37,498 nucleotides of DNA from Meiothermus sp. Lineage in GTDB: Bacteria; Deinococcota; Deinococci; Deinococcales; Thermaceae. Below the pieces are notes generated by a model, which saw nothing but the letters and a program-made list of their open reading frames with translations, had not been told where the DNA came from and did no database searches. Positions 3,639 to 14,226 of the stretch are shown here, piece by piece; positions within the stretch are counted from its first letter, which is position 1, and the number at the start of each line of letters is the position of its first letter. The stretch is taken from contig NZ_JANWVH010000020.1 in assembly GCF_025056915.1 (NCBI RefSeq), positions 1 to 37,498 of the forward strand, written 5' to 3'. A program made the position numbers and the translations under genes.

Positions 3639-6600
3639 ATGCAACCGCAGGGGGATAGAGCAGTCTCCTGGGGGTTGGTTCTGCTGGAGAGCCCCCGACT
3701 GCAAGGCCCAGGGCAGGCTCCGCTACGCCTCGAGCGCAAGACCGCCGCCCTGCTGGCTTACCTGGCCCTGGAGGGGCCCACCCCCCGCTCGAGGCTGGCC
3801 GGACTGCTCTGGCCCAACTCGCCCGAGTCCACCGCCCGCAACAACCTCTCCCAGGTGCTGCGGCGGTTGCGTCAGGCGGGTGGGGAGGGGTGGGTAACGG
3901 GGAGCGACACCCTCAGCTTGCAGGGCATCGCCACCGATGTAACCGAGCTCGAGCTGGCCCACTTTGCCGGGCGGCACGCCGAGGTGGTGCAGGGCCAGGG
4001 CCAACTGCTGGAGGGCCTCGACTACGACGACTGCCCGGAGCTGGAGGACTGGCTGATCACCAGGCGAGAGTACCTGAACGACCTGCGTCGCAGATCCCTG
4101 ACGGCCCTGGCCGATGCAGCAGAGCAAGCGGGCGAGTACCGCGAGGCGCTGCACCTTGCCCGCAGTCTGCTGGAACTTGACCTCATCTCCGAGGCCGCCC
4201 ACCGTCGGGTGATGCGGCTTTTATACCTGTTAGGCGACCGGGGGGCCGCACTGGCAGCCTACCACCGTTGCCAGGAAATTCTGCACAAGGAGCTGGGCAC
4301 CCAGCCCCTGCCCGAGACCCAGGCCCTGGCCCGGCAGATTGACCAGGGGCAGCGCCTGGAAGCCCGCGCCCCCGAGCGAAATGAAATGCCTCTGGGCTTG
4401 CTGCGCCCACCCCACGCAGTTGGACGCAAAGCCTTGCTGCGGCAGATGGAAAGGGCCTGGTTGGCGGGGCAGCACCTGATCCTGAGCGGGCCGCCTGGGG
4501 TGGGCAAGAGCCGCCTAATGCAGGAGTTCCTGGGCACCAGGGGGGCGTATCTGGCCCTCGAGGGCCGCCCAAGTGACCACGGCATACCCTATGCCAGTCA
4601 TAGCCGAATCTACCGACAGCTGCTCGAGCACCTGCCCGCGCTACCGCTGCCCGACTGGGTTCGCTCCGAGCTGAGCCGCATCGTGCCCGAGTTGGGGCAA
4701 GCCCCCGGCCCCATCCAGTCCGAGGCCGACCGACTGCGCTTCTTGCAGGCCAAGGCCGAGCTGATCCGTTTGGGCATGGCAGCAGACCTCGGGCCGGTGG
4801 CCCTCGACGACCTGCAATATTTCGACGAGGCCAGCCTTGAAGCCTGGCAGTTTGTGTTTGCCCAGGGCTACCCCCAGAGCATCCTCACCTACCGGATTGG
4901 CGAGCTGCCTCCAGGGGTACAGGGTTTTCTGAACGAATTGCTCGAGAGCAACCAGGCGGTACTGCTCGAGGTAGGGCCCCTGGATCAAGCCGCCCTTGAG
5001 GAATTGCTGGACAGCCTGGAAATTCCCCCGGCGGGCTTGTCCGAGGCCCTGTTCAAGCACACCGGAGGCAATCCGTTTCTGGCGCTCGAGACCCTGCGCA
5101 ACCTGTGGGAATCCGGGGGGTTGCAGCAGCCCCATTCGAAGGGTCTACCCAGCTCCAAAAAAGCCCAGACCCTGATCCAGCACCGCCTGGGGCGCCTTTC
5201 GCCCATTGCGCTGAACCTGGCCCGTACAGCCGCTATTGCGGGCTCCAACTTCAGCCCCGGCCTGGCCGCAAAGGTGCTGGAGGTGGGGCCCATGCACCTG
5301 ACCGAACCGTGGGCCGAGCTCGAGGCCAACCAGGTGCTCGTGGGCCACCGCTTTGCCCACGACCTGATCTACGAGGCTACCCTGAACGGTATTCCCCAGG
5401 CCGTGCGTACCCTGCTGCACTGGCGCACCGCCCAGTTTCTGCCCCCCGAGCCTGCCGCCGAGCATTACTGGACTGCCCTCTCTGCCCCCGGCGGAGCCCT
5501 GCACGACCAGCCGCTGGACAAAGCCCTCGAGGCCTTCAGTCAGGCCGCCACCCTGCACTTCCTGCGGGGGCAGCAGGAGACCGGGCGGCAGTGGTTTGAG
5601 CGGGCCTTGCAGCTAGCCCCCGACGAGGCCAGCCAGGTGCGGATTCTGGTACAAAGGGCGCGGATGGAAGAGCGTCACCTGCACTACCCCGAGGCCGCCG
5701 CCACCCTGAACCGGGCCGAGCAACTGCTGGGTGAGGTGGGGCCGGTGCTCCAGGCCAGTGTGTGGAACAGCCGGGCAGCCTTGCAGGTGCTGGGCTTTGG
5801 CGATGCCACGGGCGCACAGGGGGCGGCCCAGACGGCCCTCGAGGTGTTGGGCGACCTCGACTCGCGGGAGGCCCAGGCGGCTCGGGCCGATGCCCTCAAC
5901 TACCTGGGCGAGGCGGCCCGGATGCAGCGCGACTTTGCCCAGGCCGAGGCCCACCACCGCCAGGCCCTGGAGATTCGCCGCAGCCTGGAGGACGAGGCCC
6001 GGCTGGCCGGTTCCCTGCAAAACCTGGCCTCGGTGCTGATTGAGCGCCACCAGCCCGGCGCACAGGCTTTGCTCGAGGAGGCCCTGGTGCTGTGGAAAAA
6101 ACTGGGCCACGCGAGCAACGTGGTACGCACGCTCAACAACATGGGTAACCTGAGCTGGCGGCTGGGGCAACTGGAGCGGGCCGAGGGCTACTTCCGCCAG
6201 GCGCTCGAGCTGGCCCAGCCCAGTCAGGCCGGACTGCCCACCTTCTACCTGCACAACAATCTGGGCGCGGTGCAGTTCCGCCAGGGCAAATACCAGCAGG
6301 CCAAGGCTTCCTACCAGACTGCCCAGGCAACCTCGGAGGCTCGGCTCAACCCCCTGATGCAGGGCATGGCCCTGGGCAACCTGGTCGAAGTCCAGCTACG
6401 CCTGGGTGAGTACGATAGCGCCCGGCATAACCTGAACCGTGCCCTGCAGGTTCTGGCCGACACCAATAACCCCTACTACGAGGCCGACCTGCACTGGTAT
6501 GCGGGCGAACTCGAGGTGCTGCAACACCGCCCCGAACAGGCCCTAGAGCCCTACCAGATGGCCACCCGCGCCGCCCAGGCGGGCCGCTACCCCCTCCGCG

Positions 6601-6875
6601 AGGCCGAGGCCTGGGCCCGGCTGGCCCGCCTGCAAGCCCAGCCTGGGCTGGCCGAGCAGGCTCTGGAGCTACACCAGGCCCCCACCACCCGTGCCGCTCA
6701 GTTGCTGCTGGAGGGCCACCTCGAGGCGGCTCTAAAGGCCATCCGGGAAACCGACGACCCCTACGAGGAGGCCCGGCTGCTGCTGGATGCCAGCCGCCTG
6801 CTGGAACGGCCTGAGCTCCTGGCCCAGGCTCTGGCCCTGCTGCAAAAGCTCAGAGATTCTGACCCAACCGACTAG
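3639..6875 (+). CDS. SARP-family regulator with BTAD, STAND-like ATPase and TPR domains
   Basis: 1078 residues. Residues of about 12-95 form the winged-helix DNA-binding part of SARP/AfsR proteins (LRLERKTAALLAYLAL...LLWP...NNLSQVLRRLR). Residues of about 100-236 are the BTAD helical domain, ending with the typical ELGTQPLPET. A P-loop ATPase follows: Walker A GPPGVGKS at 284-291 and a Walker B-like PVALDD at 386-391. From about residue 640 to the end there are tetratricopeptide repeats (for example ALNYLGEAARMQRDFAQAEAHHRQAL). The architecture is that of ATP-dependent one-component activators of the AfsR/MalT type, where the TPR part usually senses a ligand or partner. The subtilase gene 124 bp downstream has a SARP-type direct repeat in its promoter, so it is a likely direct target. 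The start was chosen from the leaderless promoter; a TTG or GTG a few codons downstream is possible. Confidence 0.9.
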   Translation: MQPQGDRAVSWGLVLLESPRLQGPGQAPLRLERKTAALLAYLALEGPTPRSRLAGLLWPNSPESTARNNLSQVLRRLRQAGGEGWVTGSDTLSLQGIATDVTELELAHFAGRHAEVVQGQGQLLEGLDYDDCPELEDWLITRREYLNDLRRRSLTALADAAEQAGEYREALHLARSLLELDLISEAAHRRVMRLLYLLGDRGAALAAYHRCQEILHKELGTQPLPETQALARQIDQGQRLEARAPERNEMPLGLLRPPHAVGRKALLRQMERAWLAGQHLILSGPPGVGKSRLMQEFLGTRGAYLALEGRPSDHGIPYASHSRIYRQLLEHLPALPLPDWVRSELSRIVPELGQAPGPIQSEADRLRFLQAKAELIRLGMAADLGPVALDDLQYFDEASLEAWQFVFAQGYPQSILTYRIGELPPGVQGFLNELLESNQAVLLEVGPLDQAALEELLDSLEIPPAGLSEALFKHTGGNPFLALETLRNLWESGGLQQPHSKGLPSSKKAQTLIQHRLGRLSPIALNLARTAAIAGSNFSPGLAAKVLEVGPMHLTEPWAELEANQVLVGHRFAHDLIYEATLNGIPQAVRTLLHWRTAQFLPPEPAAEHYWTALSAPGGALHDQPLDKALEAFSQAATLHFLRGQQETGRQWFERALQLAPDEASQVRILVQRARMEERHLHYPEAAATLNRAEQLLGEVGPVLQASVWNSRAALQVLGFGDATGAQGAAQTALEVLGDLDSREAQAARADALNYLGEAARMQRDFAQAEAHHRQALEIRRSLEDEARLAGSLQNLASVLIERHQPGAQALLEEALVLWKKLGHASNVVRTLNNMGNLSWRLGQLERAEGYFRQALELAQPSQAGLPTFYLHNNLGAVQFRQGKYQQAKASYQTAQATSEARLNPLMQGMALGNLVEVQLRLGEYDSARHNLNRALQVLADTNNPYYEADLHWYAGELEVLQHRPEQALEPYQMATRAAQAGRYPLREAEAWARLARLQAQPGLAEQALELHQAPTTRAAQLLLEGHLEAALKAIRETDDPYEEARLLLDASRLLERPELLAQALALLQKLRDSDPTD

Positions 6876-6934: not shown

Positions 6935-6969
6935 CAGTCATCCTCCAGTCATGCCGAGTTTGCTACCAA
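6935..6969 (+). promoter_or_regulatory. SARP-type operator/promoter of the subtilase gene
   Basis: CAGTCAT (6935-6941), CCTC, CAGTCAT (6946-6952): a perfect heptamer repeated with 11-bp period. Exactly 11 nt later comes TACCAA (6964-6969), a plausible -10 box preceded by TGC, an extended -10. SARP proteins are known to bind such directly repeated heptamers spaced by one helical turn close to the -10. The same heptamers and spacing recur at 8735. Transcription would start near 6976, leaving a leader of about 24 nt. Confidence 0.7.
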
Positions 6970-6999
6970 TGTCTTGTGTTTGATGAAAGGGAGAAACGT

Positions 7000-8331
7000 A
7001 TGAACCGAGTCATCCTTGCACTGGTCGGCTTATTGGTACTGGCGGCTTGCAGCAATCGCATCTTTCCTACGTCCCCCGAGAGGGCGCACAGCCTAACGGC
7101 CCCATTGCTGGATTGGAAGCCAGCACCCGAGTTTGACAAGCTCTTGCCCGAACTGGACTACGACCCCAGCCAGGTGGTGGGGATTTTCGACTGCCCCGGC
7201 AACCAGACCCCCGAATGCCTGCCCAACCTCGAGCGTATTGCCAACCTCGCGGGACTGAGCCTGATTGCCGCCTATGGGCTGGATAGTGTGAGCGGTTCGA
7301 GCCTGGCCTGCGGCAAGACCCTGGTGCAGTATCGCGTGCCCCGCGGCATGGACGTGTTCACTGCCATTCAGAGGTTGCAAGCCGCTGCAGCCCAGGTAAC
7401 CGGCCGCAACGCGCTGTATGGGGTCAACCCCCAGGTAGGGCTCTACGGCGACCTAGGGAGTGCCTCCGCTCAGCGGGCCACACCCGACTGGGCGTACCAG
7501 GCCGTAAACCCGGCGCGCGGCCCGCTCTCCTCCAACCCGCTGGTGGGGGTGCTGGACACCGGGGTGAGCCCCGTGGGCGCGTTTCCCCTTCAAGGTGGGG
7601 CCGACTACACCGGCAGCGGCAGCACCGAGGACGACTTTGTCCACCCACAGCACGGCCAGCGGGGCCACGGCACGGGTGTTGCGGGCCTCATCGCAGCCAG
7701 GCCATCACTGGGGGTAGCCGAGGGCGCGGTGGTGCTGCCGGTCAAGACCAACGATGCGCGGGGCAAGGGGAGCGACGTAACGGTGGCCCGTGGCCTCTGC
7801 TACGCTGCCAGCCAGGGGGCACGGGTCATCAACACCAGCCTGGGCACCCTGCTCAACTCCAAGGTGCTCGAGCTGGCCCTCTACGACCTGAGCCAGTCCG
7901 GGGTGGTGACGGTGGCCTCGGCGGGCAACACCCGTGGCTTCAGCGGCCCCCGCCGCAACCTGCCCAACTACCCCGCCGCCTATAGCCGCACCATCAAGGG
8001 TCTGATTGCGGTGGGTTCGGTAAGCAGCGGGCTACAGACCTCGAGCTTCGCCACCGCCCAGGGCTACACCGATCTGGTAGCCCCCGGCGAGGCCGTCTAT
8101 GCCCTCGACCCCAACGGCAGTACGGACTTTTACACCGGAACCAGCTTTGCCGCCCCGTTCGTGGCAGGCACGTTGGCCCGCATAATGGACAAAAACCCCC
8201 GCCTGACCCCCTCCGACTACAAGGCCATCCTGCTGGCTACCGCCAACCCCAAAGGGTGCCGCAGGGTGCAGGGCGGGGAGTGCGGGGCTGGGCTCCTGGA
8301 CATCCAGAATGCCCTGAACAAAACACCCTAA
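7000..8331 (+). CDS. Subtilisin-like (S8) serine protease lipoprotein
   Basis: 443 residues from the ATG at 7000, preceded by AAAGGGAG (6986-6993). An upstream in-frame extension is rejected because it overlaps the SARP gene and lacks a signal. The N terminus is a lipoprotein signal with lipobox LAAC (Cys17). A propeptide-like region of about 150 residues follows. The catalytic triad is visible: Asp186 in VLDTGV, His223 in GHGTGVAG and Ser382 in GTSFAAP; the oxyanion Asn is in SAGNTRG. The enzyme should act outside the cytoplasmic membrane. It sits directly behind a SARP regulator gene and behind the CAGTCAT operator. A second SARP-subtilase pair lies at 33366-37401 on the other strand. The substrate is unknown; the neighbouring exported proteins are candidates (inference). 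Confidence 0.93.
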   Translation: MNRVILALVGLLVLAACSNRIFPTSPERAHSLTAPLLDWKPAPEFDKLLPELDYDPSQVVGIFDCPGNQTPECLPNLERIANLAGLSLIAAYGLDSVSGSSLACGKTLVQYRVPRGMDVFTAIQRLQAAAAQVTGRNALYGVNPQVGLYGDLGSASAQRATPDWAYQAVNPARGPLSSNPLVGVLDTGVSPVGAFPLQGGADYTGSGSTEDDFVHPQHGQRGHGTGVAGLIAARPSLGVAEGAVVLPVKTNDARGKGSDVTVARGLCYAASQGARVINTSLGTLLNSKVLELALYDLSQSGVVTVASAGNTRGFSGPRRNLPNYPAAYSRTIKGLIAVGSVSSGLQTSSFATAQGYTDLVAPGEAVYALDPNGSTDFYTGTSFAAPFVAGTLARIMDKNPRLTPSDYKAILLATANPKGCRRVQGGECGAGLLDIQNALNKTP

Positions 8332-8580
8332 TGCTGCGTCTACAGGTATTTTTGGGGCTATGCCTTCGCACCGGGAATAATCCGGCGACGTATTGGACGC
8401 AGTTCGCTTGAAAAACCATTGGCCACCAACCTGCCGCTTATCTGTTGACGGTGTACTGGTACTGATCAGGCCGTTTGGATTCTTGTTTGACTTCCTAACC
8501 AAGCCGGGCATCCTCAACACTGCGGCCTTTGGAGAATAAACAGGACGCAACCGCACGGGGCTGGCACAGGGGAGCGAACG

Positions 8581-8703
8581 TTGGACTGGGCGCGGGTGTT
8601 GCTCGAGAGTGCCCGCCTGCACGTTCCCGGCCAGGCCCCGCTGCGTCTCGAGCGCAAAACCGCAGGGCTGCTGACTAACCTGGCCCTGACCGGCCCCACC
8701 CCC
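8581..8703 (+). pseudogene. Relic of a SARP regulator N terminus
   Basis: The translation from the TTG at 8581 aligns without gaps with residues 11-49 of the SARP encoded at 3639: about 30 of 39 residues are identical, including VLLES, PGQAPLRLERKTA and GPTP. Similarity stops abruptly inside the winged helix and no BTAD, ATPase or TPR part follows, so the gene was lost by a large deletion. The frame happens to run on into the gene at 8800, which is not a functional fusion because a terminator, a promoter and a signal peptide intervene. Between 8332 and 8580 I see no gene. Confidence 0.75.
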
Positions 8704-8731
8704 GGACAGAAAACTGCGGGGGTCTGTTTTT
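8698..8731 (+). terminator. Rho-independent terminator behind the SARP relic
   Basis: ACCCCCG (8698-8704), a GA bulge, CAG, loop AAAA, CTG, CGGGGGT (8717-8723), then CTG and five T (8727-8731). The stem begins inside the last codons of the SARP relic, so the deletion end point may lie here. It insulates the next promoter, which starts 4 bp later. Confidence 0.7.
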
Positions 8732-8734
8732 GTT

Positions 8735-8769
8735 CAGTCATTCTCCAGTCATGCTGCTGTTCCTATCGT
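8735..8769 (+). promoter_or_regulatory. SARP-type operator/promoter of the exported-protein operon
   Basis: CAGTCAT (8735-8741), TCTC, CAGTCAT (8746-8752), then 11 nt to TATCGT (8764-8769) as -10 box. The heptamers are identical to those at 6935 and the distances are the same to the base, whereas the 11-nt spacer sequence differs (GCTGCTGTTCC versus GCCGAGTTTGC). This argues for selection on the repeat and its phasing. The predicted start is near 8776, 24 nt before the ATG at 8800. Confidence 0.7.
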
Positions 8770-8799: not shown

Positions 8800-11427
8800 A
8801 TGAAAAAATCACCCACATTCCTGGCCCTAATGGTTGTGATGGCGATCTTCTGGGGTCAGGCTGCTCAAGCCCAGCAGGGCTGGCTTTCGGGCCGGTTTGG
8901 GTTCATACCGGGTTTGGCCTGCGTGGTCTTTATCCCGGAGACGGCCGTTACTGCCTACACAGCCTACTGGGGCAGTGCCACCCCGCTGTTTCCCCAGACC
9001 GGCGATGTGACCTATGTGCAGGGGGTGGCTGCTGTGGTGGGCAACCCTTGCTCAGGGGCGGATGCGCTGGGGTTCGAGTTCTTCTTGCCTCAGGGAGCCG
9101 AGCTGGCGGTGAGTTCTCAAACCCCAGTGCGCTGTATTCTTCGGCGCTTGAGGGATGGCTACAGCGAGAACGTTCCGCTACCTGGCAACACCGGAGCCTG
9201 CTCCCAAACGCCGGCCAGCGGGCCCAATGGTGGTTTGCAGTTTGGTTTTGCGGTGGTACCTGCGGGGTGGAGTTTCGAAATTAACGTGCCGGTGCGGTTC
9301 AACCGTGCGCTCACTGGTTTGGCCGAGCCTCCCGAGCGCCGTTTGCGCGTCTTGACCAGCAGTGCCAACGGCACCGTGGTCACCGAGCAGTTTGTGGTGG
9401 TAGGGTATCGGGCGCTGGTTAACTACGATGCACCTAGCTCGACCCGCTCGGGTAATACATTCGACTTTAGCGGTTTCATCCATCACTACGGGCGAACCGG
9501 TACGGGTTTCATGGATTTTCGCTTGTCTCAAGGAGACCCTTACTCTGTACTTTCGAATTCGGGTGGCCCGGTTACGGTCAACTTACCCAGCACCAACACC
9601 ATCAGCCGGGCTACCTGGAGCATTACCATCAATCCTGGCCAAAACTACACCCTATACTGGCGGGTGCGATTTCGCGATAGCGGCGGGGTAGAGTACGTTG
9701 GGCCTGAGCAAATTGCCCAGATCAACACCACTTCAGGCGGAGGGAATCCTTCGACTACCTTCGCCCTTACCCTGAACAAGGGGGGCGCAGGCTCGGGTAG
9801 CGTGAGCAGCAACCCCCAGGGGCTGAACTGTGGGGCCACCTGCACCCAAAACTTCACCGGCGGTACGGTGGTCACGCTCACCGCCACCCCCGACCCCGGC
9901 TCGAGCTTTACCGGCTGGTCGGGCTGTACGGGCGTGGCGGGCAGCCCGACCTGCAACGTGACCATGGATCAGGCCCGCACCGTCACGGCCAACTTTGCGG
10001 TGCTGCCCCCGCTCACCACCGGCTCTTTTAGCATCACCACTAACGGCCTGCCCAACGGCTCCACGGCCAGCGTTCCCGTCACCGGCCCCAACGGCTACAA
10101 CCGTACCTTCACCATCCTGAGCGGCACTGGGCAGAGCGTCTCGAGCGCCGATGCAGGCCAGTACTTCACCACCCCGCCCAATGTGAGCTTTGGGGGCAGT
10201 ACCTATGTGGCCAGCCCGGCCACCCAGTCCTTTGTGGTGCCGGGGGGTGGCAACCCTACCTTCACCGTGGAGTACAAGTTAGGGCGCAGCCTCACCCTGA
10301 ATAAGAGTGGTGCAGGTTCGGGCAGTGTAACCAGCAACCCCGCCGGCATCAACTGCGGCGCAACCTGCACTTATGCCTTTGCCGATGGGGCCAGCGTCAC
10401 CCTGACCCCCAGCGCAAGCGCAGGCTCGGTGTTTGCAGGCTGGAGTGGGGCTTGTTCGGGCACCGGAGCCTGTACTGTGACCATGAACACAGCTCAGACC
10501 ATCACGGCTACGTTCAATCAAAGCCCCACCCAGACCCTTACGGTGAGCAAGGCGGGCAGTGGTACGGGCAGTGTCAACAGCAATCCAGCAGGTATTAGCT
10601 GTGGAGCCAACTGCGCGGCCAATTTCGCACAGGGCTCCACGGTAACACTCACCGCTGCCCCTGATAGCGGCTCCACCTTTACCGGCTGGAGTGGAGCCTG
10701 TAGCGGCACCGGAACCTGCTCAATCACAATGGACGCGGCCAAGACCGTTACAGCGACCTTTACCAACCCTAACGCCGCCCCTGCCACACTCACCGCAGCC
10801 AAGCCCGTCAACGCCCCCGCCGATGCCACCCGGCTCAAGGGCGATACAGGGGTGCCCGCACTGGCCTTCACCCTTACTCCCAGTGGTAGCCCAACTATCA
10901 CTTCCTTCACCTTGCAGGCTTCCGGAAGTGGCAACGATGTATTGGATATTACCGCCGTTCGGATCTACCTCGATACCAACCGCAATGGGCAGGTAGACTC
11001 CGGCGAGACCTCCCCGCCCGCCCAGCGTTTCAACGCCGACAACGGTACCCTCAGCTTCAGCCTCACAGGCAGTAGCAGCTCCGGCCTGAGCCTGGACCAA
11101 CCCGCACAGTTTCTGGTGACGGTGGATTTCAACACCACCCTGGCGAGTCGGCCTGCGGTGCTGAAAGCCTCGAGCCTGCCACTGCCCGCAGGGTTGCTAC
11201 TGGCCCTGGCTCCCATGGTGCTGCTGGGGGCCTGGCGGCTGCGCTCGACCAGTGGCCGACTGCTGGGTCTGAGCCTGATCCTGCTGCTCACCGCTGGCCA
11301 GTGTGGAAACAGCCCTACTTTGCCAGCTGCTCCCAGGACTTACCAGATCAACCTGACCGCTGTGGGTACGACCGCTACACCTAGCGGCCTGCCCATTACC
11401 GGCGCCACCATCACGGTGCAGAAATAA
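8800..11427 (+). CDS. Large secreted protein with three bacterial repeat domains and a sorting-like hydrophobic C-terminal region
   Basis: 875 residues from the ATG at 8800, after ribosome site GGAGGAGA (8788-8795). The signal peptide ([16 protein letters not shown]...) ends near AQA-QQ. A unique N-terminal domain is followed by three copies of the Cys-containing repeat GSGSV-SNP-G--CGA-C...GWSGxC..GTGxC at about residues 322-398, 497-572 and 578-654, with a separate insert between the first two. A domain with the calcium-loop-like [12 protein letters not shown] follows. Residues 793-815 read LPLPAG, a hydrophobic stretch and RLR, like PEP-CTERM-type sorting signals. A second hydrophobic stretch then ends in TAGQC (Cys835), with 40 more residues after it. 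It is the first gene of a run of eight under the SARP-type promoter. The function is unknown; a surface or matrix protein is inferred. Confidence 0.88.
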
Positions 11428-12921: not shown

Positions 12922-13104
12922 GTGGCCACGACCTGCACGCAAATTTATGTGGTTCGCATCTGGTACGAACCCACCCCCGAAGGCGAGGTCTGGCGGGCCT
13001 CGGTCAGCCAGGGCGAGGAGCGCCATTACTTCGCCGAGCCCAGTGCTCTAACGGCTTTTTTGCAGCAGCAGATGGAAGAGTCCAGGGTGGAGGCGCCGGA
13101 GTAG
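12922..13104 (+). CDS. Small conserved-looking protein of 60 residues
   Basis: The GTG at 12922 opens a frame of 60 codons that fits exactly between two operon genes, 11 bp after the previous stop. The sequence has the pattern of small cytoplasmic hypothetical proteins: RIWYEPTPEGEVWRASV, then GEERHYFAEPSALTAFL, an alternating beta pattern with a terminal helix. No signal peptide is present, so it differs from all its operon neighbours. The ribosome site is weak (AGGCAG), so it may be coupled to the upstream gene. The exact start is uncertain. Confidence 0.6.
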   Translation: MATTCTQIYVVRIWYEPTPEGEVWRASVSQGEERHYFAEPSALTAFLQQQMEESRVEAPE

Positions 13105-13158
13105 CCCGTCAAGCTTCAGCCATGCTGGATTGACCAGCCTTTGCATCAGGAGGTACGG

Positions 13159-14226
13159 ATGAACAGAATTTCTTTCGCCCTGGGGGGGTTGTTACTCGCC
13201 GCCTGCGGAGGCGGCGGTGGGGGCAACCCCACCAACCCCACCGGCAGTTTCCCCGCCGAGCTTTCGGGGGTCTGGCAGGACACCCTGGCCAGCAGCGGCA
13301 ACTTCCGCAATCCCCTCACCGGCTTCGAGTTCAGCATGACCGAGGGCTACTCGGCCCAGCTCAAGGTGAAGCCCAACGGCGAGTTCTACTTTGCCCACTA
13401 CGCCCAGGGAGTCGCGCCCAACTGTAGCCTGGTGAGCTTCTTCGACCAGATGGTGGGGCAGGCCGAGTGGGGCAACAACCGGCTCACCCTGCGGCCCCGC
13501 GAGCGCCGGCTGGATGTGCGGAACTGTGCCCAGTCGGGCACCTTCAACCAGCGGCTCGAGCCGGTGGTGTTCGAGGCTTCCGTCAGCGAATACCCCACCT
13601 TTCTGGATACCAGCCTGCTGATGGAGCTCTCGGGCGGCCCCTATCCCCTGCGTTTCAAGCTGCTGAACCGTACCCCCCCTGCCAACCTGCCCAAACTACC
13701 CCAACCCCCCGGCTTCGAGCTAGGCCAGGACGGCCCCTACGACGAAATCCTGGGGCTGTGGGGTCGCTACGAGAACCACTTCTACAACCCCCAGACCGGG
13801 GCCTACCGCTTCCCGGACTGCTGCGGAGAGAACCGCTTTTTGCGCTTTTCGCCCGAGGGCTACGAGCTGGGCATGGCCTTTGTGCGGGTGAACCTCGAGG
13901 GGGTCTGCAAGAAAGACCTGATCTACTACGAGAAGGGCCAAGCCCGGTTCAAAACCACCGACCAGCGCGGCACCGACACCTACCAGGGGGATGTGCGGCT
14001 GGCCGCCAGCCAGGCCCGGCTGATTGTGCGCATCCGCGAGTGTGGGGCGGAGGACGGGGTTCAGGAATACACCCTAGAGCCCCTCACCCGCTACCACCGC
14101 TGGAGCTACACCCTGCCCCAGGGCGGGGAGAGCTTCATGCTGGGCTGCCAGTACCCCACGCACTTCTGGGGTTTTGCGGTCTGCTACGAGGCCAACCCCT
14201 GGTACACCTACCAGCGGCAGCCATAG
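13159..14226 (+). CDS. Lipoprotein of unknown function
   Basis: 355 residues from the ATG at 13159, with ribosome site CAGGAGG (13147-13153). The signal ends in lipobox LAAC (Cys16), followed by a run of six glycines as a flexible tether. Two related halves seem present: a segment with LSGVWQDTLASSGNF...NPLTGFEF near the start and ILGLWGRYENHFYNPQTGAYRF in the second half. Both are followed by a long stretch with paired cysteines. This suggests an internal duplication of a beta-rich domain. No catalytic motif was seen. It is the fifth gene of the operon, with only 13 bp to the next start. Confidence 0.8.
   Translation: MNRISFALGGLLLAACGGGGGGNPTNPTGSFPAELSGVWQDTLASSGNFRNPLTGFEFSMTEGYSAQLKVKPNGEFYFAHYAQGVAPNCSLVSFFDQMVGQAEWGNNRLTLRPRERRLDVRNCAQSGTFNQRLEPVVFEASVSEYPTFLDTSLLMELSGGPYPLRFKLLNRTPPANLPKLPQPPGFELGQDGPYDEILGLWGRYENHFYNPQTGAYRFPDCCGENRFLRFSPEGYELGMAFVRVNLEGVCKKDLIYYEKGQARFKTTDQRGTDTYQGDVRLAASQARLIVRIRECGAEDGVQEYTLEPLTRYHRWSYTLPQGGESFMLGCQYPTHFWGFAVCYEANPWYTYQRQP

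Follow-up and report, generated by a model that had tools for sequence, protein, structure and literature searches.

Tandem CAGTCAT sites as probable operators of a large SARP regulator and its exported-protein targets in Meiothermus

Introduction

SARPs are known as the antibiotic switches of actinomycetes. AfsR of Streptomyces coelicolor is a large SARP with an ATPase and TPR domains, and it acts on two 11-bp direct repeats that overlap the -35 position. The AfsR box comprises 22 bp at positions -40 to -19, on which the protein sits as a side-by-side dimer with region 4 of the sigma factor docked on the SARP (PMC10936776). The AfsR heptamer is CGTT(C/T)AT (PMC10972967). The SARP-LAL regulators PimR, SanG, and PolR also use heptameric direct repeats with 4-nt spacers, which are bound by at least two protomers (PMC5930380). 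Tandem heptamers, CTGTCAT, occur as well in the Pho box, which is recognized by PhoB through an OmpR-type DNA-binding fold (PMC4415409). In the bacterial family to which Meiothermus belongs, DnrS of Thermus thermophilus is a BTAD protein that acts as a transcriptional activator (PMC5748679). No description of a Meiothermus SARP was found in the literature searched, which likewise contained no such SARP regulon from thermophiles.

Results

The window analyzed here (37,498 nt) is a complete contig, C104, of a 3.02-Mb Meiothermus draft genome in 191 contigs. The gene at 3639..6875 on the plus strand encodes a protein of 1078 aa (P0001), named a SARP in a preliminary description of this DNA. Domain analysis confirmed the assignment. 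The deduced protein carries the N-terminal OmpR-type DNA-binding domain and the BTAD domain (Pfam, 3.9e-16) of the large AfsR-like SARPs, together with AAA/NOD (AAA_16, 2.5e-13) and TPR (TPR_12, 4.9e-27) domains. The AF2 model of its 253 N-terminal residues (pLDDT 89.7) matched best, in the Protein Data Bank, the AfsR-promoter complexes 8k60 and 8hvr (E 5e-11, TM 0.69), with EmbR next. The AfsR equivalog model NF053617 of NCBIfam gave 43.2 bits against a cut-off of 1430; the product is a SARP and not an AfsR orthologue. Its recognition helix reads ...ESTARNNLSQVLRRLRQ, and a 94% orthologue is present in genome G013.

Two exact copies of CAGTCAT-N4-CAGTCAT were located on the plus strand of the window, as the preliminary description had claimed. 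Operator 1 (6935..6952) consists of heptamers at 6935-6941 and 6946-6952 with the spacer CCTC, and operator 2 (8735..8752) of heptamers at 8735-8741 and 8746-8752 with the spacer TCTC. The heptamers are thus identical and the spacers different, as had been noted, but the spacers differ by a single base only. A -10-like box lies 11 nt past each operator on the same strand: TACCAA(T) at 6964..6969 for operator 1 and TATCGT at 8764..8769 for operator 2. The reported geometry was therefore found at both sites, but the box behind operator 1 does not conform to TAnnnT and is poor, the weaker of the two. Operator 1 is nevertheless kept in G013 with the same -10. The -35 position, 17 nt upstream of the -10 box, is occupied by TCCTCC or TTCTCC and does not resemble TTGACA. 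The sites thus share with large-SARP operators the direct repeats, the 11-bp period, the proximity to the -10 box, and the overlap with the -35 position. A terminator-like GGGGGTCTGTTTTT sequence adjoins the upstream side of many intergenic operators (window 8710-8734; loci L021, L097, L098, L101, and L108).

Operator 1 precedes a gene for a subtilase-family (S8) lipoprotein of 443 aa (7000..8331, plus strand; Peptidase_S8, 1.9e-42) with a lipobox-like N terminus, LAAC. Operator 2 precedes a gene for an exported protein of 875 aa with InlB-type repeats (8800..11427, plus strand; Flg_new_2, 2.2e-28), which has a hydrophobic, signal-like N terminus and homologues that follow the site in other genomes. 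Operator 2 is directly preceded by a remnant of a second SARP gene at 8569..8724 (plus strand), which matched residues 5-56 of P0001 with 65% identity in blastp. This remnant suggests a tandem duplication of SARP-operator-target cassettes. A second cassette on contig C108 of the same genome is composed of a SARP gene, a site, a subtilase lipoprotein gene, a site, and a small lipoprotein gene. A position weight matrix (PWM) also detected a third, decayed operator, CCGTCAA-GCTT-CAGCCAT-N11-CAGCCT, at 13106..13140 (plus strand), upstream of a gene for the lipoprotein MNRISFALGGLLLAACGGGG... (13159..14226, plus strand), which is a third, probably weakened target. The decayed operator scored 17.8 compared to 43-47 for operators 1 and 2, and 1 of 20 shuffled windows reached 16.9; its counterpart at the homologous gene is intact in G007, G010, and G018. 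Genes for a family of small proteins (about 60-75 aa) immediately follow many SARP 3' operators (L045, L156, L150, L047, L164, and L112), and one such gene lies at 12922-13104, just before the decayed operator.

Within the window alone, four matches with at most 3 mismatches were obtained compared to a mean of 1.39 in shuffled sequences. This excess is only modest, and the real evidence is therefore the comparison across genomes. In the entire genome, the 18-mer is exact at three places (6935, 8735, and C108:307-324) and nearly so at three more, and the geometry does not vary among them. The search of related genomes proposed in the preliminary description was positive: the 35-bp pattern with at most 2 mismatches was present in 19 of the 50 genomes of the family, and the reversed pattern in none. 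When the -10 box was left out of the query and two mismatches were allowed, 58 sites were found in these genomes versus 11 matches to the reversed pattern, and 52 of the 58 still have a TAnnnT-like box exactly 11 nt downstream. On the basis of the reversed-pattern controls, a chance origin of the motif was rejected. The exact 35-bp pattern occurred in only 14 of 11.3 million prokaryotic contigs, 5 of them from Meiothermus. The exact-pattern sites in unrelated phyla are isolated, and no obvious SARP adjoins those inspected.

A logo of 54 sites revealed an invariant GTCA in both repeats, which is partly a result of the search design, and an informative spacer (NCTY) between flanks that carry little information. 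An 11-bp unit, CAGTCATNCTN, describes the repeat better. In the fetched loci, paired heptamers were numerous only at spacer 4, besides pairs at spacer 11 inside SARP coding sequence; the latter run antisense to the stretch of the SARP gene that encodes the conserved YDDCPDFDDW and were rejected as sites.

The sites are linked to one clade of SARP genes. The distance from the stop codon to the start of the first heptamer is 2-11 nt in 15 members of the close clade and 59-60 nt in two further ones, the gene at 3639-6875 and its G013 orthologue; in an eighteenth, frameshifted gene, the site lies just inside the gene end. With a close SARP relative defined by an E value of at most about 1e-135, the motif was present in 17 of the 18 genomes with such a relative and in 2 of the 32 without (Fisher 3e-10, phylogeny ignored, so that phylogenetic dependence inflates the P value). 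The pattern recurs in genus g4: a close SARP occurs in 3 of its 27 genomes, and the motif is found in the same three only. The single genome with a close SARP and no strict match, G001, has a degenerate site after the SARP gene, TTGTCAC-GCTC-CGGTAAC-N11-TAACCT, with exact geometry. The site-linked SARPs have the helix ARNNL[ASV]Q in common, which paralogues without the CAGTCAT motif do not. G008 and G021 have the site and no close SARP, which counts against the SARP reading, as does the poor -10 box of operator 1. In G008, a Meiothermus genome, the same cupin-like target and site were observed as in the g4 genomes (L115, L110, and L114); horizontal transfer or loss of the SARP is a possible explanation.

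The Pho box has the same 7+4+7 tandem layout near the -10 box. The sites could accordingly be Pho boxes at which a PhoB-type response regulator acts under phosphate limitation. The E. coli heptamer CTGTCAT (PMC4415409) differs from CAGTCAT by one base, the Meiothermus genome encodes eight OmpR-type DNA-binding domains, and AfsR and PhoP of Streptomyces have sites in common (PMC10972967). By sequence, the motif is as near to the E. coli Pho box as to the AfsR site, so that PhoB had to be excluded. PhoU, however, is present in 49 of the 50 genomes and the motif in 19, and the distribution of the motif follows that of the SARP rather than that of the Pho system. The pstS and phoU regions of the Meiothermus genome lack the site, no recognizable pho gene lies behind any site inspected, and the site abuts SARP gene ends. 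Identity with the Pho box was rejected on the basis of the PhoU distribution and the site-free pstS and phoU regions, and we consider this explanation very improbable.

The position 2-11 nt past the SARP stop codon would also fit a SARP that binds the sites mainly as a repressor or blocks read-through from its own gene. Many sites do not lie behind SARP genes, however, and an invariant -10 distance combined with a missing -35 element is typical of activation, which makes this variant less probable still. The rigid spacing to the downstream box might also mean that an alternative sigma factor, and not an activator, recognizes the motif. Against this, the downstream box has the TAnnnT form used by the housekeeping sigma factor, tandem repetition at one helical turn suits a dimer bound side by side, and the linked gene encodes a SARP, no linked sigma factor gene having been seen; of the three alternatives, this is the one to which we give the least credence.

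The genes behind the sites differ between genera. Sites in Meiothermus precede genes for the subtilase lipoprotein, a small Gly-rich lipoprotein, large exported repeat proteins, and a lipoprotein family, as well as two genes unlinked to a SARP gene, encoding a 450-aa exported protein and a DUF11 protein. In the g4 and g3 genomes and in G008, they precede genes for a methyltransferase-like protein and for small proteins, cupin-like and other (named by eye). In Meiothermus, the predicted targets are thus exported proteins and lipoproteins, but in other genera the genes behind the site mostly encode cupin-like or different proteins. Since the targets differ in this way, the regulon is not a fixed exported-protein regulon; the regulator and its site, as a pair, are either older than the targets or more mobile. 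The gene for the 450-aa protein, a trans target, is present in 9 of the 50 genomes with the site upstream in 8; no site was listed upstream of the divergent copy in G015. The copy in the genome studied here is a remnant of 45 aa, still preceded by a site (L022 9009-9204, contig C120), whereas relatives have the protein intact.

A survey of the other large SARPs of the family revealed 3' operators with heptamers of their own. A paralogous SARP gene on contig C109 of the same genome carries at its 3' end CAGTGAC-GCTG-AAGTGAC-N11-TACCCT (PWM scan), the same layout with another heptamer, and one further AGTGAC-type site precedes a gene for an exported protein on C184. Elsewhere in the family, CAATGAC/GAGTGAC sites go with the helices GQHNLRQT and ARHSLRQV, an AGTAAC/ATATAAC site with RRNLRQE, a double TTGCAAC with ARRNLRRE, and a CCCTAAC/GGCTAAC site with SARNNLRQT; further variants exist. 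In the ARHNLRVV subfamily, the -10-like box has an ATG within about 6 nt on its downstream side (L047 4285-4330 and L164), so that the mRNA of a small protein would be leaderless.

When a 3' operator was defined by NNNTNA[CT] in both repeats and TAnnnT at N11, 14 of 46 SARP gene ends outside the CAGTCAT clade qualified compared to about 1 of 281 control gene ends, a control set cleaned up from 299 after the hits had been seen. Before the clean-up, 19 of the 299 had qualified: 17 CAGTCAT regulon members, 1 frameshifted SARP end, and 1 that remains. Outside the family, 4 of 21 SARP gene ends qualified, and in G097 the helix TARNNLVQ again occurs with CTGTCAT-CCTA-GTGTCAT. Four SARPs of G050 with a similar helix have no such 3' site, so the rule is not universal.

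Operator similarity correlated with helix similarity (r 0.61) and with overall protein relatedness (r 0.73); a partial Mantel test of operator versus helix gave r 0.26 (p 0.0015). Because relatedness over the whole protein accounts for operator similarity no less well than the helix does, the covariation is inseparable from shared descent, and co-descent alone could explain the correlation of operator with helix. A clean operator-helix code is not claimed, as overall relatedness explains more than the helix does. We lean toward the view that the large SARPs of the Thermaceae and some relatives form self-addressed cassettes, in which many genes have an operator of their own no more than about 100 bp from the 3' end, its geometry conserved and its heptamer particular to the subfamily. 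ARNNL[AS]Q with CAGTCAT, GQHNLRQT with CAATGAC-GAGTGAC, RRNLRQE with AGTAAC-ATATAAC, and ARRNLRRE with TTGCAAC would, with the same moderate confidence, be examples of such pairings.

Discussion

We propose, with a probability of about 0.88, that the large SARP encoded at 3639-6875 binds both sites and that these serve as operator-promoters. This reading is based on sequence, geometry, conservation, linkage to SARP genes, co-occurrence, and the SARP fold; physical binding, activation rather than repression, the start sites, and the inducing signal are what we infer from them. The SARP paralogue on C108 probably also binds both sites. The preliminary description had read a regulator, its recognition sequence, and two target units in a single window, and the clade-linked position, the distribution across genomes, and the AfsR-like layout argue for this.

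Two SARP protomers would sit side by side on the two 11-bp repeats (CAGTCATNCTN) and cover the place of the -35 element. By analogy with AfsR (PMC10936776), the box is placed at about -41 to -20, with the SARP substituting for the missing -35 contact. The pair may then bring RNA polymerase to the TAnnnT box that lies 11 nt further on, which would switch on the secreted proteins and lipoproteins. The AAA and TPR modules presumably gate this activity, as reported for AfsR.

We regard the system as a new regulon in which a regulator of a familiar type appears in a setting new for it. It provides a regulator, a predicted operator, and a multi-member regulon that would act on secreted proteins in thermophiles. 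The 3' operator position pairs regulators with probable binding sites from sequence alone, which makes a SARP recognition code directly testable. If the self-addressed cassettes hold true, SARP-DNA specificity could be read from genomes and used to derive such a code.

Comparison with the known systems revealed the following differences. The site is not tied to phosphate genes as the Pho box is and tracks the SARP. DnrS has a GAF-BTAD architecture and is concerned with nitrate respiration, and the accessible part of the report names no operator (PMC5748679). PimR, SanG, and PolR recognize CGGCAAG in antibiotic clusters, in three repeats in the case of PimR (PMC5930380). AfsR belongs to another phylum and has other targets. 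It is nevertheless matched by the Meiothermus SARP in fold (TM 0.69), with about 24% identity over the SARP domain; its heptamer CGTT(C/T)AT and CAGTCAT have 5 of 7 bases in common, and the layouts of the two boxes agree within 1 bp, with the Meiothermus box about 1 bp further upstream.
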